A DNA stretch of 64,000 nucleotides from Terriglobia bacterium. GTDB lineage: Bacteria; Acidobacteriota; Terriglobia; Acidiferrales; UBA7541. The stretch spans positions 62,001 through 126,000 of the forward strand of contig JAIQFB010000013.1 of the NCBI GenBank assembly GCA_020073485.1, in the 5' to 3' direction. Shown here piece by piece: positions 1,014-35,938 of this stretch. A program made the position numbers and the translations under genes. The notes below the pieces were generated by a model that worked only from the letters and a program-made list of their open reading frames with translations, ran no database searches and was not told the origin of the DNA. Within the stretch, counting starts at the first letter, position 1, and every line of letters starts with the position of its first letter.

Positions 1014-2090
1014 ATGAATTGTACACGAAAATGGCTGGTGGCCGTCTTGTCCGTCGGTTTGTCCGGCGCTGGCTTCGCCGTCCTACGGGCGCAGCAGCCC
1101 CCAGCACAGGGCCCAGCACAGCCGCCATCGCTGAAGGCCGACGAATCCCGTGGAAAAATTGTCTCGAATGTTTCCCTGGTGGTAGTGCCGGTGACGGTAA
1201 AGGACAGCGCCGGGGAACTGGTTACCGACCTCGAGCAGAATGAGTTCCGAATTTTCGAGGACGGCATCGAACAACCCATCTCCGTGTTCTCGGTGGACGC
1301 CTTCCCTTTGTCGGCCGCCGTCTTGATCGACGACGACTTGAAACGAAGCACGGCGGAAAAGGTTCAGAAGACGCTGGAGACGGTCGCGGGCGGGTTCAGT
1401 CCGTCCGACGAGGTTTCCTTGTGGCGGTTCGACAATGTTCCCGAATCTATTTCTGATTTCATCGGCACCAACGACGCGCTGCTCACCGAGCTCAAGCGCA
1501 TCGACCTGAGCAGTTCGTTCCCCGGCATCGGTTCGGCGCCCATGACCAACGGGCCGCACGTGAACACGGCGCAGCCGCCGGGGCCAGCCGCGATTCCTTC
1601 GATGGCCGCCGGGCATCCCAACAACAAGCACATCAACGACGTGATTTACGCCGCCGCCGAACAGTTGCGCGACCGCGGCCGTGAACGCCGAAAAATTATT
1701 TTCTTGATCTCGGACGGCCAGAACGCCAAGAACAATACGCACAGCTACGACGACACGCTCAAGCTGCTGCTCTCGGCGGACATTTCCGTGTACGCGGTAG
1801 GCGTCGGCGAGGCCAATCTCAATCGCGGGATCACGTTTCTGGGAAACAATATTCTCGCCAAGTACGCGCACTCGACCGGAGGCGACATTTTTTACGGCGG
1901 CATCAGCCGCGAGGAACTCGAAGGCCTCTACGCGCGCGTCACGGAGCAGGCGCGCAACCAGTACACCCTCGCTTACTCCGGCGCGAAGACCGATCGCTCC
2001 AAGCCCTATCACACGATCGAGGTGCGCGTGAGGCGGCCGGGATTGTCGTTGCTCACGCGCGACGGCTACTACCTGAGCGACAAGCCCTGA
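1014..2090 (+). CDS. Secreted VWA-domain protein with degenerate MIDAS
   Basis: This is a 358-residue protein starting at the ATG at 1014; the frame stays open upstream to 915 but that part is repeat DNA. It has an N-terminal signal peptide (MNCTRKWLVAVLSVGLSGAG), a beta-rich linker (SNVSLVVVPVTVKD) and a VWA domain. The position that normally reads DxSxS reads D-D-D-L-K at residues 106-110, so both metal-coordinating serines are missing. The later aspartate region (ISDGQNAKNN) is retained. The family is typical of Acidobacteriota. It probably folds as a VWA domain but may not bind metal in the usual way. The neighbouring VWA gene on the other strand keeps an intact motif. Confidence 0.85.
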   Translation: MNCTRKWLVAVLSVGLSGAGFAVLRAQQPPAQGPAQPPSLKADESRGKIVSNVSLVVVPVTVKDSAGELVTDLEQNEFRIFEDGIEQPISVFSVDAFPLSAAVLIDDDLKRSTAEKVQKTLETVAGGFSPSDEVSLWRFDNVPESISDFIGTNDALLTELKRIDLSSSFPGIGSAPMTNGPHVNTAQPPGPAAIPSMAAGHPNNKHINDVIYAAAEQLRDRGRERRKIIFLISDGQNAKNNTHSYDDTLKLLLSADISVYAVGVGEANLNRGITFLGNNILAKYAHSTGGDIFYGGISREELEGLYARVTEQARNQYTLAYSGAKTDRSKPYHTIEVRVRRPGLSLLTRDGYYLSDKP

Positions 2091-2125
2091 TATTCAATTG
2101 GAACATTTCTCGTCCTCCAAACGAT

Positions 2126-2207
2126 CGTCATTCCGAGCGAAGGGAGGAATCTCTCTTTCTTTTGAATTTTCGACCCGGAGGGATTCCTCGCCTCGCTCGG
2201 AATGACG
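2126..2207. repeat. Palindromic repeat family 3, copy 1
   Basis: The ends CGTCATTCCGAGCGA and TCGCTCGGAATGACG are inverted, and an inner GGATTCCTC pairs with GAGGAATC. Other copies are at 17896-17984 and 60928-61016. The element is about 85 nt, non-coding and always intergenic; terminal inverted repeats give it a MITE-like or REP-like look. Confidence 0.8.
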
Positions 2208-2429
2208 ATTTTAGGTTCTTGTGAATTCTGAAGCCGGTGAGGCAACCTGCTCGGAAATTTCAAAACCACGCAAGCTGAAGCTTGCGCCTCTAATCCCGCC
2301 GCGCCATCCTGGGCCGCATCTAGCTGGGAAAATGCTGCACAACTCTCGCAAAATCGCGCAATTTATTTTCCGAAAAAATCTTTTTCCGCTCGATCATCTA
2401 TTTCGATACCGCCGCTCCGGAATTTCTTC
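2208..2429. other. Intergenic stretch, no gene seen
   Basis: No convincing coding frame. A short perfect hairpin with arms CGCAAGC and GCTTGCG lies at 2269-2286. The stretch 2345-2400 is unusually AT-rich for this window and leads into the small-RNA promoter. Confidence 0.5.
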
Positions 2430-2458
2430 TTGACTTCCCCGACGTTCGCTCGTAAAAC
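2430..2458 (+). promoter_or_regulatory. Sigma70-type promoter of predicted small RNA
   Basis: TTGACT at 2430-2435, a 17-base spacer and TAAAAC at 2453-2458 give a near-consensus housekeeping promoter. The predicted start is near 2465. No gene in the right orientation follows except the structured region that ends in the terminator at 2619-2654. Confidence 0.6.
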
Positions 2459-2464
2459 GACGGT

Positions 2465-2654
2465 AGCGAGTTTGCTTCGCGTCCGGTTTCTGATTGAACC
2501 CCACGCGAATGAAGAATTGCTCGCTGCTCCGAGGGGAGATTGGTTTACGGAGCGAATGCGCGCAGGCCCAACAGGAAACGCAGGCTACCGAGACCGGTCC
2601 ACGGATACGTTTCCAAGCGGGGCGCCCCAATAAAGTCGAGGCGCCCCGTTTTTT
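2465..2654 (+). ncRNA. Predicted ~190-nt structured small RNA
   Basis: The transcript predicted between the promoter at 2430-2458 and the terminator at 2619-2654 has no good coding frame but clear stems. AGCGAG (2465-2470) pairs with CTCGCT (2520-2525). Inside it TTCGCGT (2476-2482) pairs with ACGCGAA (2503-2509), with GGTT/AACC at the tip. A second hairpin pairs GCTCCG (2526-2531) with CGGAGC (2548-2553). A third pairs GGAAACG (2574-2580) with CGTTTCC (2608-2614), with ACCG/CGGT inside. The size is that of 6S RNA, but three consecutive hairpins do not match the single long 6S rod, and I see no SRP, tmRNA or RNase P signature. The class is unknown. Confidence 0.55.
2619..2654 (+). terminator. 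Intrinsic terminator of predicted small RNA
   Basis: GGGGCGCC at 2619-2626 pairs perfectly with GGCGCCCC at 2640-2647 and is followed by G and six T at 2649-2654. The T run lies only on the plus strand, so it serves a rightward transcript, not the leftward helicase gene that ends at 2703. Confidence 0.8.
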
Positions 2655-2702
2655 ATCTCTCCTTAATTTTCCAGGAAATCGATCCATGCACGCGGGGGCT
2701 GA

Positions 2703-5700
2703 TTATTCTTCTCCCGAAGCGCTGGCCGCGGCGCCTTGCTCTCGCGCCGGGCAGATGGACTCGTAATCGCAGAACTTGCAGGCGAAGCCCGGCTTCGCCG
2801 GAAAATTGCCGGCGCGGATGTCCGCGGCCGCTTCCTGAATTTCCGCGCGCACTTTTTTGAGTTGCTTTTCATCGCGCGTCGCGCTCACGGCGTGGTTGTT
2901 CTGCAGATAGTGCAATGTGAGGCGCGCGGGATTCCAATCGAAAACTTCGCGGGCCGCCAGGGCATAGACGCTGAGCTGAACGTCTTTTTTCGCCTTCTCC
3001 TCGTTGCGCGGTTTTCCCGTTTTGTAATCGACGATTTCTTCCTCGCCGGGAGCGATGCGACTGACCTGGTCCATACGGCCGGTGAGGACCACGTTGTTTT
3101 CCATGGGCAGGTCGAACGTTTTCTCCTGCGCGATCACATTGGGGGGCGATGCGAGCGTCGTTGCGTAAAAGGCGCGCAACTGCGTCACGCCGTCTTTCTT
3201 GTATTCCTGTTCCTGGTAGTCGTCCTCGAATCCCGCCGAGGTCCACTCCAGCTCGAATTTGCGTTCCACTTCCTCGAACGGGAGGATGTGGCCGGCAGCC
3301 AGTTCGCTCATGAAATATTTGATCGTATTGTGCATCACGCTGCCGAAACTCATGGCCGCCGCCGGGCCGCCGCGCAGGCCCCACGCGCCGTTGAACAGAT
3401 ATTTTTGCGGGCAGGACTCCAGCGTGCCGATCGCCGAGGGGCTGAGCTTCAGCGGCTCCGGCACCGGCGGGCGGTAGGTGACGGCCCACTCGCCGATCCG
3501 CGAGCCGATGCGCGCGCGGCGTTCCGGCAGATCGAAAAGCGCGGGCTCGGGTTCGGCCGGCGCCGGCGGCTCGCTGGCGGCAACGGGAGCAAGCTGTTCG
3601 ACATCCCGGCGCTTGATTTGCGCGTCCATCAGGATGTCGTCGAGAAACGGGGAAGGTTTCGAGCGTTTGTTCTCGACCGTGTTCAACGTCAGCCTGTGCC
3701 GCGCGCGCGTCACGGCCACGTAAAATAGACGGCGCTCTTCCTGGATGTGAAAACTTCCCTGCGGCTGCTCTTCCTTCATCAGTGCCGCAGGGAATTCGAG
3801 CACGCGAGGTTTTTCCCCGGCTGGAAATCCGCGCTGCACCAAGTGCAGGACATACACGTGGTCGAATTCCAGGCCCTTCGCGGCGTGCACGGTCATCAAC
3901 TGCACGGCGTCACCTGATTCCTGCTCCAGATTGATCGATCCCCCGGCCTGCTCGAAATAATCCAAGTACTCGACAAGTTCCCGGAGGCGCTGGGTTTCGC
4001 TCTTGGGCTGCCATTCGCGCACAAACTGCGCGAGGCGGTCGAAATATTTGCGGTCTTCTTTCCGGCCTTCTCCAGCGACTGCTGTCGCGATTTCCAGGGC
4101 TTCGGCGAGTTCGTCAAATAATTCCGAGGCCGTGAGTTGCCGGGTTTTTTTTCGCAATGCCGCGATCATCTCGATGAGTTCGCCCAGGCGCCGCTCGCCT
4201 CCGGAGAAGGGAGGCTCGGTGTGTGACGCCTGCATGGTGTCCCACAGGGAAATCCCTTTGCCCTTCGCCGTGCGTTCCAGCAGGCGCACCAGATCGGACG
4301 GTTCGAGGCCCCAGGCCGGCATGGCCAGCACGCGCGCGCAGGCCACGTCATCGTGCGGCTGATCGATCAGGCGGAGATAGGCGATGAGGTCACGCACCAG
4401 GCGATGCGAGAGGATGGAAAGATTCTTGATGACGAAGGGAATTTTGCGTGCCTTGAGCACATCCACGAGTTTGTCGCGGTGCGCGTGGCCGCGGTAGAGC
4501 ACCGCGAACGAGCGCCATTTCGCCCCCGCGCGATGCAGGCGCTCGATTTCGCCGGCCACCCACTGCGCCTCGGCTTCGTTTGTCGCGTGCGTGACGATCC
4601 GCACTTTGTTGCCGTCCTCGCGCACTGCCGTGAGCGGGTACTCCGGAATATTCACCGGCTTTTCATTGTGCCGGATGGCCTGGCCCGCGACGCGGAGAAT
4701 TCGGCCGGAGGAACGGTAATTGAGCGTGAGCGGCCGCAGCAGATCGCGATGGGCGTCGGGCGAGCCCGTGGCAAATCGATTGAGAAAAATCGTAAAGCTG
4801 CCGAACGACGCGCCGCGAAAGCGGTAAATTGCCTGGCGATGATCGCCGACCACGACCAGATTCGGACGCTCGCCGCCGAGCAGCCAGAGCAATTCGAGTT
4901 GCGCGATGTTCGTATCCTGGAATTCGTCGACCAGGATGTAGCGGTAGCGCGCGCGGAGCGATTCGCGCAGGGCGGCGTCCTCGCGCAGGCGCACGACGGC
5001 GTCCATGATCTGCGTGCCGAAGGTCAGCAGTTTGCGGTCGCGCAGAAGCAAGTCGCTGGCGCGGTAGGCCCGCGCGATTTCCAGCAGCTTGGCGATTTCC
5101 TCGTCGCGGACGGCGCGCTCGGGTTCGTCCAGGGCGCCGCGCACGCGGCGAAAGCTTTCCGCCTGCGCGTCGGCATAGCGCTGGTAATCATCGGGCGAAA
5201 CCAATTCATCCTGGCAGCGCGAGAAGAATTCCACGAAGTCGCCGAGGAATTGTCCCGGCTCGGCGAGCCGCCGGAAGTGATCGAGCTGCAGCAGGGGCAG
5301 GTTGCGCCGCAGCAGGATCCAGTGATCCACTTTGTCGATGGGTTTGAGTTCGGGATTGACTTCCTGCAGCAGGGCGTTACAAAACGCATGAAAGGTGCTG
5401 AGCGTCACGCGCTCGGCGCGCTCGGCATCGGCTTCGCCGCGGTCGCGAGCGGCGGCCACCACGCGATGCTTCATCTCGGATGCCGCTTTGTCGGTGAACG
5501 TCAGTCCCAGGATTTCCTGGCCCGTGAGACCGGGCTGCGTGTCCAGCAGGTGGCGGATGCGCTCGGTGATCACACGCGTTTTTCCCGTGCCCGCGCCGGC
5601 CACCACCACCAGCGGCCCCTCGCCATGATGCACGGCGGCGCGCTGCTCCGGATTCAGCTGAATTCCGGGCGATGGAACGCCGGCATGTTCAAACAGATCG

Positions 5701-5705
5701 GCCAT
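2703..5705 (-). CDS. UvrD/AddA-like helicase fused to Fe-S PD-(D/E)XK nuclease
   Basis: This 1000-residue protein is a superfamily-1 DNA helicase. It has Walker A GAGTGKT (Lys42), the DEFQDT motif II near 265, the YRSS motif, TVHAAKGLEFDHV and VAVTRARHRL. The C-terminal ~250 residues are a RecB-type nuclease with GRMDQV, IVDYKTGK and QLSVYAL, bracketed by one Cys (LESCPQKY) and the cluster CKFCDYESIC, the four-cysteine arrangement of AddB-like 4Fe-4S nucleases. It likely processes DNA ends in recombination repair. The start at 5705 has GGGGAG upstream; the frame is open a further 49 codons without a better start. It is divergent from a small-protein gene, with an operator-like palindrome between them. 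Confidence 0.85.
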   Translation of the reverse strand: MADLFEHAGVPSPGIQLNPEQRAAVHHGEGPLVVVAGAGTGKTRVITERIRHLLDTQPGLTGQEILGLTFTDKAASEMKHRVVAAARDRGEADAERAERVTLSTFHAFCNALLQEVNPELKPIDKVDHWILLRRNLPLLQLDHFRRLAEPGQFLGDFVEFFSRCQDELVSPDDYQRYADAQAESFRRVRGALDEPERAVRDEEIAKLLEIARAYRASDLLLRDRKLLTFGTQIMDAVVRLREDAALRESLRARYRYILVDEFQDTNIAQLELLWLLGGERPNLVVVGDHRQAIYRFRGASFGSFTIFLNRFATGSPDAHRDLLRPLTLNYRSSGRILRVAGQAIRHNEKPVNIPEYPLTAVREDGNKVRIVTHATNEAEAQWVAGEIERLHRAGAKWRSFAVLYRGHAHRDKLVDVLKARKIPFVIKNLSILSHRLVRDLIAYLRLIDQPHDDVACARVLAMPAWGLEPSDLVRLLERTAKGKGISLWDTMQASHTEPPFSGGERRLGELIEMIAALRKKTRQLTASELFDELAEALEIATAVAGEGRKEDRKYFDRLAQFVREWQPKSETQRLRELVEYLDYFEQAGGSINLEQESGDAVQLMTVHAAKGLEFDHVYVLHLVQRGFPAGEKPRVLEFPAALMKEEQPQGSFHIQEERRLFYVAVTRARHRLTLNTVENKRSKPSPFLDDILMDAQIKRRDVEQLAPVAASEPPAPAEPEPALFDLPERRARIGSRIGEWAVTYRPPVPEPLKLSPSAIGTLESCPQKYLFNGAWGLRGGPAAAMSFGSVMHNTIKYFMSELAAGHILPFEEVERKFELEWTSAGFEDDYQEQEYKKDGVTQLRAFYATTLASPPNVIAQEKTFDLPMENNVVLTGRMDQVSRIAPGEEEIVDYKTGKPRNEEKAKKDVQLSVYALAAREVFDWNPARLTLHYLQNNHAVSATRDEKQLKKVRAEIQEAAADIRAGNFPAKPGFACKFCDYESICPAREQGAAASASGEE

Positions 5706-5813
5706 CAAGGGCTCCCCGGCAACAGTAGCACAGGATTTCGCACCGCGCTCAAGCGCCGAATGGTATGCATTTAGGCAAATAATTGTGTTGCAACATACCT
5801 CTGTTGTGTTAGT

Positions 5814-5827
5814 GTACGGAACCGTAC
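5814..5827. promoter_or_regulatory. Operator-like palindrome in helicase/small-ORF divergent region
   Basis: GTACGG-AA-CCGTAC is a perfect 14-bp palindrome. Extended, AGTGTACGNNACCGTAC recurs at 7111-7127 in the promoter of the XRE-S24 repressor gene; I found no other copy in the window. It lies 64 bases before the small-protein start at 5878 and 109 bases from the helicase start at 5705. The likely binder is the S24 repressor; this is inference. Confidence 0.6.
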
Positions 5828-5877
5828 CCTTTCCTCGGACGCCCATGTCCATAGACCAGTACGATTGGAGATTTCCA

Positions 5878-6279: not shown

Positions 6280-7095
6280 TCAACTCTCTTTCCCGATCCA
6301 CCAGAGAACCTTGGCAAGAATGAGCCACTTTTCTTTCCCATTCAGCACGATCGGTTCGTACTCCCTGTTTTCCGGCTGCAGCAGTTCCGCCTGGCCGTAG
6401 CGCTTCAGGCGCGACACCGTCAATCCTTTGTTCTTGTTCCAGCCGATCACAATTTGGCCTTCCAGCTTGGACCGGTCGTGCTGCGAGGAGTCCACTGCAA
6501 GGATGTAGCCTTCGTGGATTAATGGCGCCATCGAGTTGCCGCTGACCCGCAAGCACGTGGAAGTGGAAGGATTTGGGCACCATTCATTGGGCGCGGCAAT
6601 AGCGCTTTCCACCGGGGCGTCGTCCAGCACCGGCGAGATGTCCCCTTTTCCCCCGTGCGATGCCACGACGACTTTGAGCAAGGGAACGGCGACAAGCTGC
6701 GGAAGCTTCGATTTCTTGCGCCCGCTGCCAGCAGTAGCAATCCGCAGATTGACCATATTGCTTCGCCCCAGGCGCTTTCGGAAGTTCGGCAGGACGCGCA
6801 TCAGGTCTTCGTTCCCCAGCCCTGCCCGGGCCCAGAAATACCAGCACAGGGGATCGCCCGCGAGATTGCCGAGATCGATGTAACTGGCCGCCGTGGGCTC
6901 CTGGGCGGCGCGTTCCCAGCGGGAGATGGCCATGGCAGACATACGCAGGCGCTGGCCGAAATCGGTCTGGCTCAGATTCAGGCTATGGCGCAAATCGGAA
7001 ATCTTTTGAGCCCACTCCTGTTGCCCTTCGTCACGGGATTTGTTCGGCGGTCTTTGCATGGAGGTATTGCCGTTCCGCAGGCCGGCGGCTGGCAT
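6280..7095 (-). CDS. XRE-family repressor with S24 (LexA-like) domain
   Basis: A 271-residue transcriptional regulator. Residues about 28-80 form an XRE helix-turn-helix (ISDLRHSLNLSQTDFGQRL, then AISRWERAAQEPT). The C-terminal part is a peptidase S24 fold with the Ser-Met pair SGNSMAP (Ser188) and the general-base lysine in TVSRLKRY (Lys231). No Ala-Gly or Cys-Gly bond sits at the usual distance before the serine, so self-cleavage is uncertain. Start 7095 has GGGAAAG close upstream; Met13 (7059) is an alternative. True LexA is encoded separately at 21462. It probably represses itself and nearby genes through the AGTGTACGNNACCGTAC site. Confidence 0.8.
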   Translation of the reverse strand: MPAAGLRNGNTSMQRPPNKSRDEGQQEWAQKISDLRHSLNLSQTDFGQRLRMSAMAISRWERAAQEPTAASYIDLGNLAGDPLCWYFWARAGLGNEDLMRVLPNFRKRLGRSNMVNLRIATAGSGRKKSKLPQLVAVPLLKVVVASHGGKGDISPVLDDAPVESAIAAPNEWCPNPSTSTCLRVSGNSMAPLIHEGYILAVDSSQHDRSKLEGQIVIGWNKNKGLTVSRLKRYGQAELLQPENREYEPIVLNGKEKWLILAKVLWWIGKES

Positions 7096-35863: not shown

Positions 35864-35938
35864 AGGGGAGTAGGTTCAACGGTAGACCATCGGTCTCCAA
35901 AACCGAGAGTGGGGGTTCGAATCCCTCCTCCCCTGCCA
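35864..35938 (+). tRNA. trnW: tRNA-Trp (CCA anticodon)
   Basis: Acceptor stem AGGGGAG pairs with CTCCCCT, followed by discriminator G and encoded CCA (35936-35938). The anticodon arm TCGGT-CTCCAAA-ACCGA shows anticodon CCA. The T arm is GGGGG-TTCGAAT-CCCTC. It starts seven bases after the rpmG stop and lies upstream of secE, a widely conserved position. Confidence 0.96.

Follow-up and report, generated by a model that had tools for sequence, protein, structure and literature searches.

The stretch of DNA analyzed here, 64,000 nucleotides long, from an uncultured acidobacterium of soil, and referred to as the window, carries a short unit at positions 2430 to 2654 that lies between a VWFA protein gene and a convergent helicase gene. 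In the following, g1 denotes the genus of the window and f1 its family, which comprises 13 genera (g1 to g13), and G and L numbers denote genomes and loci. The features at the locus are as follows.

1014 to 2090, + strand: VWFA protein of the Acidobacteria type (TIGR03436), upstream of the unit, matched above the curated cut-off
2430 to 2458, + strand: promoter TTGACT-N17-TAAAAC, read from the sequence and recurring at the matching place across genus and family
2465 to 2654, + strand: predicted transcript of about 190 nt, noncoding in g1, with homologs in all six g1 genomes searched
2465 to 2525, + strand: stem 1, AGCGAG(T)/(G)CTCGCT, arms 2465 to 2470 with 2520 to 2525, with one compensatory change from C-G to U-A
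2526 to 2553, + strand: stem 2, GCTCCG/CGGAGC, arms 2526 to 2531 with 2548 to 2553, paired in 100% of cells in six genomes
2532 to 2539, + strand: AGGGGAGA element, from an alignment of 36 units
2556 to 2562, + strand: AUGCGCG, better conserved than any other element of the RNA across the family
2574 to 2614, + strand: stem 3, GGAAACG/CGTTTCC, arms 2574 to 2580 with 2608 to 2614, paired in 95% of cells in g1
2618 to 2654, + strand: intrinsic terminator with a 9-bp GC-rich stem, a 13-base loop, and T6, read from the sequence
2703 to 5852, − strand: UvrD/PcrA/Rep-like helicase with a C-terminal Cas4/AddB-like nuclease region, convergent with the unit, all NCBIfam matches below the curated cut-offs

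The −35 hexamer (TTGACT, 2430 to 2435) and the −10 hexamer (TAAAAC, 2453 to 2458) are separated by a spacer of 17. The initial annotation called this promoter near consensus; the hexamers and their spacing are indeed present, but the −35 matches the consensus at five of six positions and the −10 at only four of six, with the final T missing. Hexamers and spacing are seen again in related genera in the alignment of 36 units, an agreement that partly reflects the choice of rows, since these were picked by a promoter-like pattern, and the −10 is poor in one g1 genome (G003). The start of the predicted transcript is set by the promoter and its end by the T-run, and the roughly 190 bases between them, predicted to be transcribed, had been placed correctly. 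The GC-rich stem is formed by the arms CGGGGCGCC and GGCGCCCCG (2618 to 2626 with 2640 to 2648) and is followed by T6 at 2649 to 2654, as reported; homologs retain the terminator with its sequence altered. A stringent scan of positions 2000 to 3200 listed no promoter (0.4 expected), so that TTGACT/TAAAAC is not among its hits, and two other terminator-like sites (2.2 expected) without that of the unit, which falls outside the scan because its 13-base loop exceeds the loop limit of 8. No gene in the same orientation follows the unit, the next one being the convergent helicase gene. Sequence and conservation both point to a unit with its own promoter and terminator.

Further features surround the unit. 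A long inverted repeat at 2126 to 2207 (CGTCATTCCGAGCGAAGG...CCTCGCTCGGAATGACG) has the appearance of a dispersed palindrome of the REP/MITE type, direct repeats with a length of about 35 bases (TGGAGCCCGCC.GAATTCGGGTG.GGGCTCTACT) occupy positions 916 to 995 immediately 5′ of the VWFA gene, and positions 6280 to 7095 encode an HTH protein whose C-terminal region resembles LexA/UmuD, for which all matches fall below the curated cut-offs.

No Rfam family matched the unit at or above its gathering threshold, and the only match of Rfam 15 in the window is a tRNA at 35864 to 35935. A relaxed search of the unit retrieved three matches with E values of 1.2 to 7.7, far under the thresholds. The likeness to 6S RNA is one of size, near 190 nt; as for the earlier remark that the fold does not recall 6S, RF00013 has no match at the locus and scores above its cut-off elsewhere in the same genome; it does so in 12 of the 13 genomes searched, that of the window included. 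The covariance-model searches thus rule out that the unit is 6S RNA or a member of another Rfam family. The models of Acido-1 (RF01686) and Acido-Lenti-1 (RF01687) are presumably within the release searched, and the unit has no match to either even at E values up to 10. These two resemble the unit in being candidate acidobacterial noncoding RNAs; the part of PMC2864571 that names them records them as Acidobacteria RNAs submitted to Rfam as RF01686 and RF01687.

A DNA search of 61 genomes retrieved matches at an E value of ≤0.01 in eight, namely, the six g1 genomes, a genome from a different genus (G017), and G009; the last was judged to be chance, as it lacks the motif and adjoins neither a helicase nor a VWFA match. 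Low-scoring matches of the first model mostly reflected shared terminators and were counted as homologs only with a helicase or VWFA neighbor. The unit is found in 11 of the 13 genera of the family (6/6 g1 genomes searched and 10/12 other genera), and its usual position is between the 3′ end of the UvrD-like helicase gene and the VWFA gene, which lies near the unit in many relatives. Of the 89 family genomes searched, 87 had a helicase match, and the regions downstream of the helicase were collected from 84 of these (G076, G098, and G099 left out). A pattern consisting of the promoter plus either ATGCGC or a Lys-rich open reading frame (ORF) was found in 46 of these 84. The pattern missed two g1 genomes with TTGCGC (G003 and G004) and G007, in which the −35 differs, and it retrieved no unit in g12 (0/5) or g9 (0/1). 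In g6 (2/2), the unit is next to a VWFA gene, at a distance of about 2.5 kb from the helicase, and in g5 it is present in 14 of 35, many g5 regions having different neighbors.

A sequence-only model of the 36 units matched 39 places in 38 of the 399 genomes of the class at an E value of <1e-5, all of them in f1. All 36 genomes used for training are among the 38, G106 being matched at two contig ends, and the remaining two are G007 and G008, which were outside the model. Among 95 genomes of the order, no match outside f1 was better than an E value of 0.02, in searches that can miss weak relatives since filters are strict and few candidates are scored per genome; matches of the model in f9 (E values of 1.7e-4 to 0.03, four genomes) were rejected as one coding-like region. 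Synteny and the recovery of G007 and G008 from outside the training set rule out chance similarity of the units.

The 36 units were aligned from the promoter to 12 bases beyond the start of AUGCGC, one of 37 rows (G067) having been removed as a spurious chance match. The distance from the G-rich element to the AUG is 20 to 26 nt in 35 of 38 units, 33 in g6, and 37 in g11. Because two patterns, a promoter-like one and [AT]TGCGC[GA], had been used to choose the rows, conservation of those columns follows partly from that choice. A count free of it was made on the 56 of 84 regions that have a VWFA match and an intergenic distance of 150 nt or more, 33 of them outside g5 and 23 in g5. Outside g5, ATGCGCG is present on the transcript strand in 29 of 33 helicase-VWFA intergenic regions versus 1 of 33 on the opposite strand; in g5, the corresponding counts are 1/23 and 3/23. 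Within g1, the 34-nt core (AGGGGAGA, hairpin, and AUGCGCG) has a mean identity of 93%, compared with 54% at the four-fold sites of the helicase gene, and is higher in all 15 pairs, which argues that the core is under selection in this genus. Against the four-fold sites of the VWFA gene, the values are 93% versus 48% in g1 (higher in 10/10 pairs) and 88% versus 46% in g4 (higher in 36/36 pairs), with about 7 of the 34 core columns belonging to the rule that selected rows outside g1. The same ungapped comparison gave no clear excess in g3 (2/6 pairs), g7 (0/1), or g8 (1/1).

The three successive stems with 6- to 7-bp arms proposed initially are all present, and in the six g1 genomes they are formed in 96.6% of cells, versus 32 to 47% for slid partners. 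The loop of stem 1 contains an insert that is absent from four of the six g1 members. In stem 2, one of the six pairs varies in these genomes, on one side only; its loop contains AGGGGAGA, and its 3′ arm contains a Shine-Dalgarno-like GGAG. Stem 3 has no compensatory pair in g1. The compensatory changes anticipated for these stems amount to 1 of 20 pairs altered on both sides, a weak result that 91 of 500 shuffles equal, and structural support within g1, consisting of this one pair, is modest. Folding of 2465 to 2654 gives a z of −2.58, with 2 of 200 shuffles as good. With the terminator excluded (2465 to 2613), z is −0.83 and 36 of 200 shuffles are as good, so that fold stability outside the terminator is at chance level, and an argument for structure from fold energy alone was discarded as uninformative once the terminator is removed. 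The minimum free energy fold of the window's single sequence leaves stems 2 and 3 unformed; both are formed in a consensus fold of seven homologs, built on a rough alignment and with a slightly unfavorable covariation term (+1.56). In g4, a distinct hairpin, GUUCC/GGAAC, surrounds AUGCGCG and is formed in 98.2% of cells in 11 genomes. It shows two compensatory pairs, a number reached by 3 of 500 shuffles, both pairs coming from the single genome G105. Hairpins near the motifs vary by genus, and the common feature of the family, judged from the alignments, is two linear motifs rather than one fold.

The description of the unit as a new small RNA stands in that the unit is conserved, stand-alone, and without an Rfam match. 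It missed the version in the sister genera and is half the story, because the corresponding unit in other genera of f1 encodes a micropeptide. A Lys-rich ORF lies in these units (for example, MKKVPKKEKKKGK, MKKATKKAKKGSKKGC, MAKKAKKAAKTAKKGSKC, and MKKKGKKDEKKGPKKGK); the coding genera are g2, g5, g10, g11, and g13, the peptides have 13 to 18 amino acids within the family, and differences in ORF length are whole codons in the alignment. In 39 same-genus pairs of micro-ORFs of equal length, which are not independent of one another, 135 differences are synonymous versus 115 nonsynonymous (5 to 0 in the g13 pair and 0 to 2 in the g10 pair), and the neutral synonymous fraction is 0.17. These counts indicate that the micropeptide of the sister genera is under protein-level selection.

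Peptide and AUGCGCG occur together in g2, g10, g11, and g13; the peptide occurs without AUGCGCG in g5, and the motif occurs without the peptide in g1, g3, g4, g6, g7, and g8. Among the 38 units with the motif, a Lys-rich ORF is present in 7 (two each in g2, g10, and g13 and one in g11) and lacking in 31 (6 in g1, 1 in g2, 5 in g3, 12 in g4, 2 in g6, 3 in g7, and 2 in g8). The retention of AUGCGCG in six genera that lack the ORF, with strong constraint on the core in two of them (g1 and g4), points to an RNA element conserved independently of the ORF. In g2, g10, and g13, AUGCGCG overlaps a second start codon that is out of frame (AUGCGCGAUGAAG or AUGCGCGAUGGCU; L007/L035, L036, L037, L038, L042, and L146), which may set two start codons in competition where the micropeptide begins; in the g11 unit (L043), the AUGCGCG start and the micropeptide start are in frame.

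None of the six g1 genomes has a Lys-rich ORF in the unit. A relocated micropeptide was sought by a pattern search of the six genomes and rejected, none of its six matches being genuine. The model of coding units, described below, has no match at an E value of ≤0.01 in the window's own genome or in four of the five other g1 genomes, with seven candidates scored per genome, and its weak matches within f1 (G003, G030, G109, G033, and G110) were inspected and none is a micropeptide. Read from AUGCGC, synonymous differences number 2 of 75 in g1, 18 of 71 in g3, 90 of 368 in g4, 2 of 4 in g7, and 1 of 8 in g8; the expected fractions of 0.24 to 0.30 (0.26 in g1, 0.27 in g3, and 0.30 in g4) are exceeded only by the tiny g7 sample. 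The codon-difference and ORF tests support, for g1, the claim that no frame is protein coding. In g3 and g4, frame 0 exceeds both alternative frames, which hints weakly at coding in these genera.

With a model built from 21 coding units, 161 of the 399 genomes of the class gave matches at an E value of ≤0.01, many of these matches being partial, due to Lys codons, and of little meaning. From the top of the list, 23 matches outside f1 were inspected (1 in f2, 1 in f6, 15 in f7, 2 in f11, and 4 in f15). The loci L226 and L228 to L249 of these five families hold Lys/Ala-rich micro-ORFs, such as MKNATKKAAKKAPAKKAAAKKKK, with a Shine-Dalgarno-like site and mostly a TTGAC promoter. A complete Lys-rich ORF is present in 22 of the 23, that of G242 extending beyond the stretch, and TTGAC stands at the promoter place in 21; since the model favors Lys codons, the ORF in its matches is not independent evidence. 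GGGAGA precedes the start in 15/15 units of f7 and 2/2 of f11. The AGGGGAGA element is similar to this Shine-Dalgarno-like site 5′ of the micropeptide start in other families and would correspond to it. Both neighbors are kept only in the f2 unit, and two f15 loci show weak VWFA matches. In the f2 genome (G037, of the same order), the unit between the helicase and VWFA genes encodes MKKKAAKKKKK. Three such peptides have no match in Pfam or NCBIfam, a weak negative at this length. The Lys/Ala-rich micropeptides probably constitute one family across the Terriglobia, and the unit of the window has the same arrangement of promoter and terminator between helicase and VWFA genes as the micropeptide gene of the family and class.

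The history of the ORF was traced on a midpoint-rooted tree of the VWFA protein with 56 rows, 21 of them unlabelled. The labels for presence and absence of the ORF need three changes on this tree, at least two of which are forced by well-supported branches. One change is that of G018 (g2), which has a stop immediately 3′ of the start codon. The other changes involve two larger groups that lack the ORF, one made up of g1 and g7 (support of 85/58) and one of g3, g4, and g8 (100/99), which flank the coding genus g5. Because the forks between the groups without the ORF are not all firm, the ORF could have been lost once and regained in g5, although it seems less likely that similar Lys-rich peptides arose repeatedly. 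The peptide is favored as the ancestral state because the f2 unit, outside f1 and at the matching place, still codes for it. The ancestor would have carried both the peptide and the RNA element, and the peptide would then have been lost in several lineages that kept the RNA.

We consider it rather probable that the g1 unit functions as a small noncoding RNA gene, equipped with a promoter and a terminator of its own, and that it descends from a micropeptide gene whose coding capacity it no longer has. It could instead still make a peptide from the AUG of AUGCGCG (M-R-...), in which case the conservation would mark a translation start region. The AUG is kept in four of the six g1 members, the other two having UUG, also a start codon; GGAG lies just 5′ of it, and the synonymous fraction of frame 0 is 0.25 versus 0.06 and 0.03 in g3 and 0.24 versus 0.12 and 0.17 in g4. 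These g3 and g4 fractions are, however, not above the neutral expectation (0.27 and 0.30), and frame 0 of g1 has only the 2 synonymous differences in 75. Compared with G005, its nearest relative, the window is moreover frameshifted about ten codons in, and the frame passes the terminator in five of the six g1 genomes and stops within the terminator loop in that of the window; continued translation is accordingly rated improbable. Still less probable is that the unit is a relic of the micropeptide gene in the course of decay, persisting merely for want of time to disappear. The missing ORF, the variation of lengths and stems between genomes, and the turnover of terminator sequences would suit a relic, but a core 93% identical, against 54% at the four-fold sites of the neighboring gene, and a motif that persists in six genera without the ORF would not.

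For a functional noncoding RNA, the favored reading of its action, and the least certain part of the proposal, is that the remaining RNA would act in trans as a regulator. AUGCGCG and its flanks might pair with mRNAs or be held by an RNA-binding protein. Given a functional RNA, pairing with mRNAs is a reasonable possibility that we would stop short of calling likely. An antisense search with 13-mers, allowing one mismatch, gave 15 to 33 matches per genome in the six g1 genomes and no usable target signal, and no targets are named because this background is too high. The main rival is a decoy or sponge that would bind a protein or the 30S subunit through GGA loops and Shine-Dalgarno-like sites, with no base pairing. 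The second hairpin, with AGGGGAGA in its loop and GGAG in its stem, would fit such a role, as would the spacing of 20 to 26 nt between the G-rich element and the AUG in 35 of the 38 units. The hairpin context of the motifs changes among genera, however, and we regard a decoy as unlikely, if less so than a surviving peptide or a relic.

The nearest precedent for a regulatory RNA with this history is SgrS/SgrT of enteric bacteria, a terminator-bearing gene for a small RNA that in some species also contains a short ORF, whereas other species have lost the ORF and retained the RNA. The sections of PMC4021124 on sgrT describe a Yersinia SgrS without the sgrT ORF and O157:H7 strains with an altered sgrT start codon, and dual-function small RNAs are catalogued in PMC5521070. 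SgrS/SgrT differs in belonging to another phylum and in the size of SgrT, about 40 residues compared with the 13 to 18 Lys-rich residues in f1. In g5, furthermore, the peptide is kept and the RNA motif is gone, the reverse of the SgrS/SgrT case. A small ORF under protein-level selection, one mark of a dual-function RNA, is found in the sister genera and not in g1. In the literature on acidobacterial dual-function RNAs and Lys-rich small proteins, nothing on the unit appeared among the matches listed.

More tentatively, the units may represent an undescribed dual-function RNA family of the Acidobacteriota, with functions sorted between lineages that would keep both, the peptide only (one large genus), or the RNA only (several, including g1), and with a peptide drawn from an unannotated micropeptide family spread across the Terriglobia. 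Among the bacteria that carry the peptide version, some may be culturable. If this reading is right, these 11 genera, with the unit mostly at one genomic place, would constitute a natural experiment on how a peptide-coding RNA gene splits its two jobs, and they would point to Lys-rich peptides that form an unannotated family in a major phylum of soil bacteria and whose promoters look strong.
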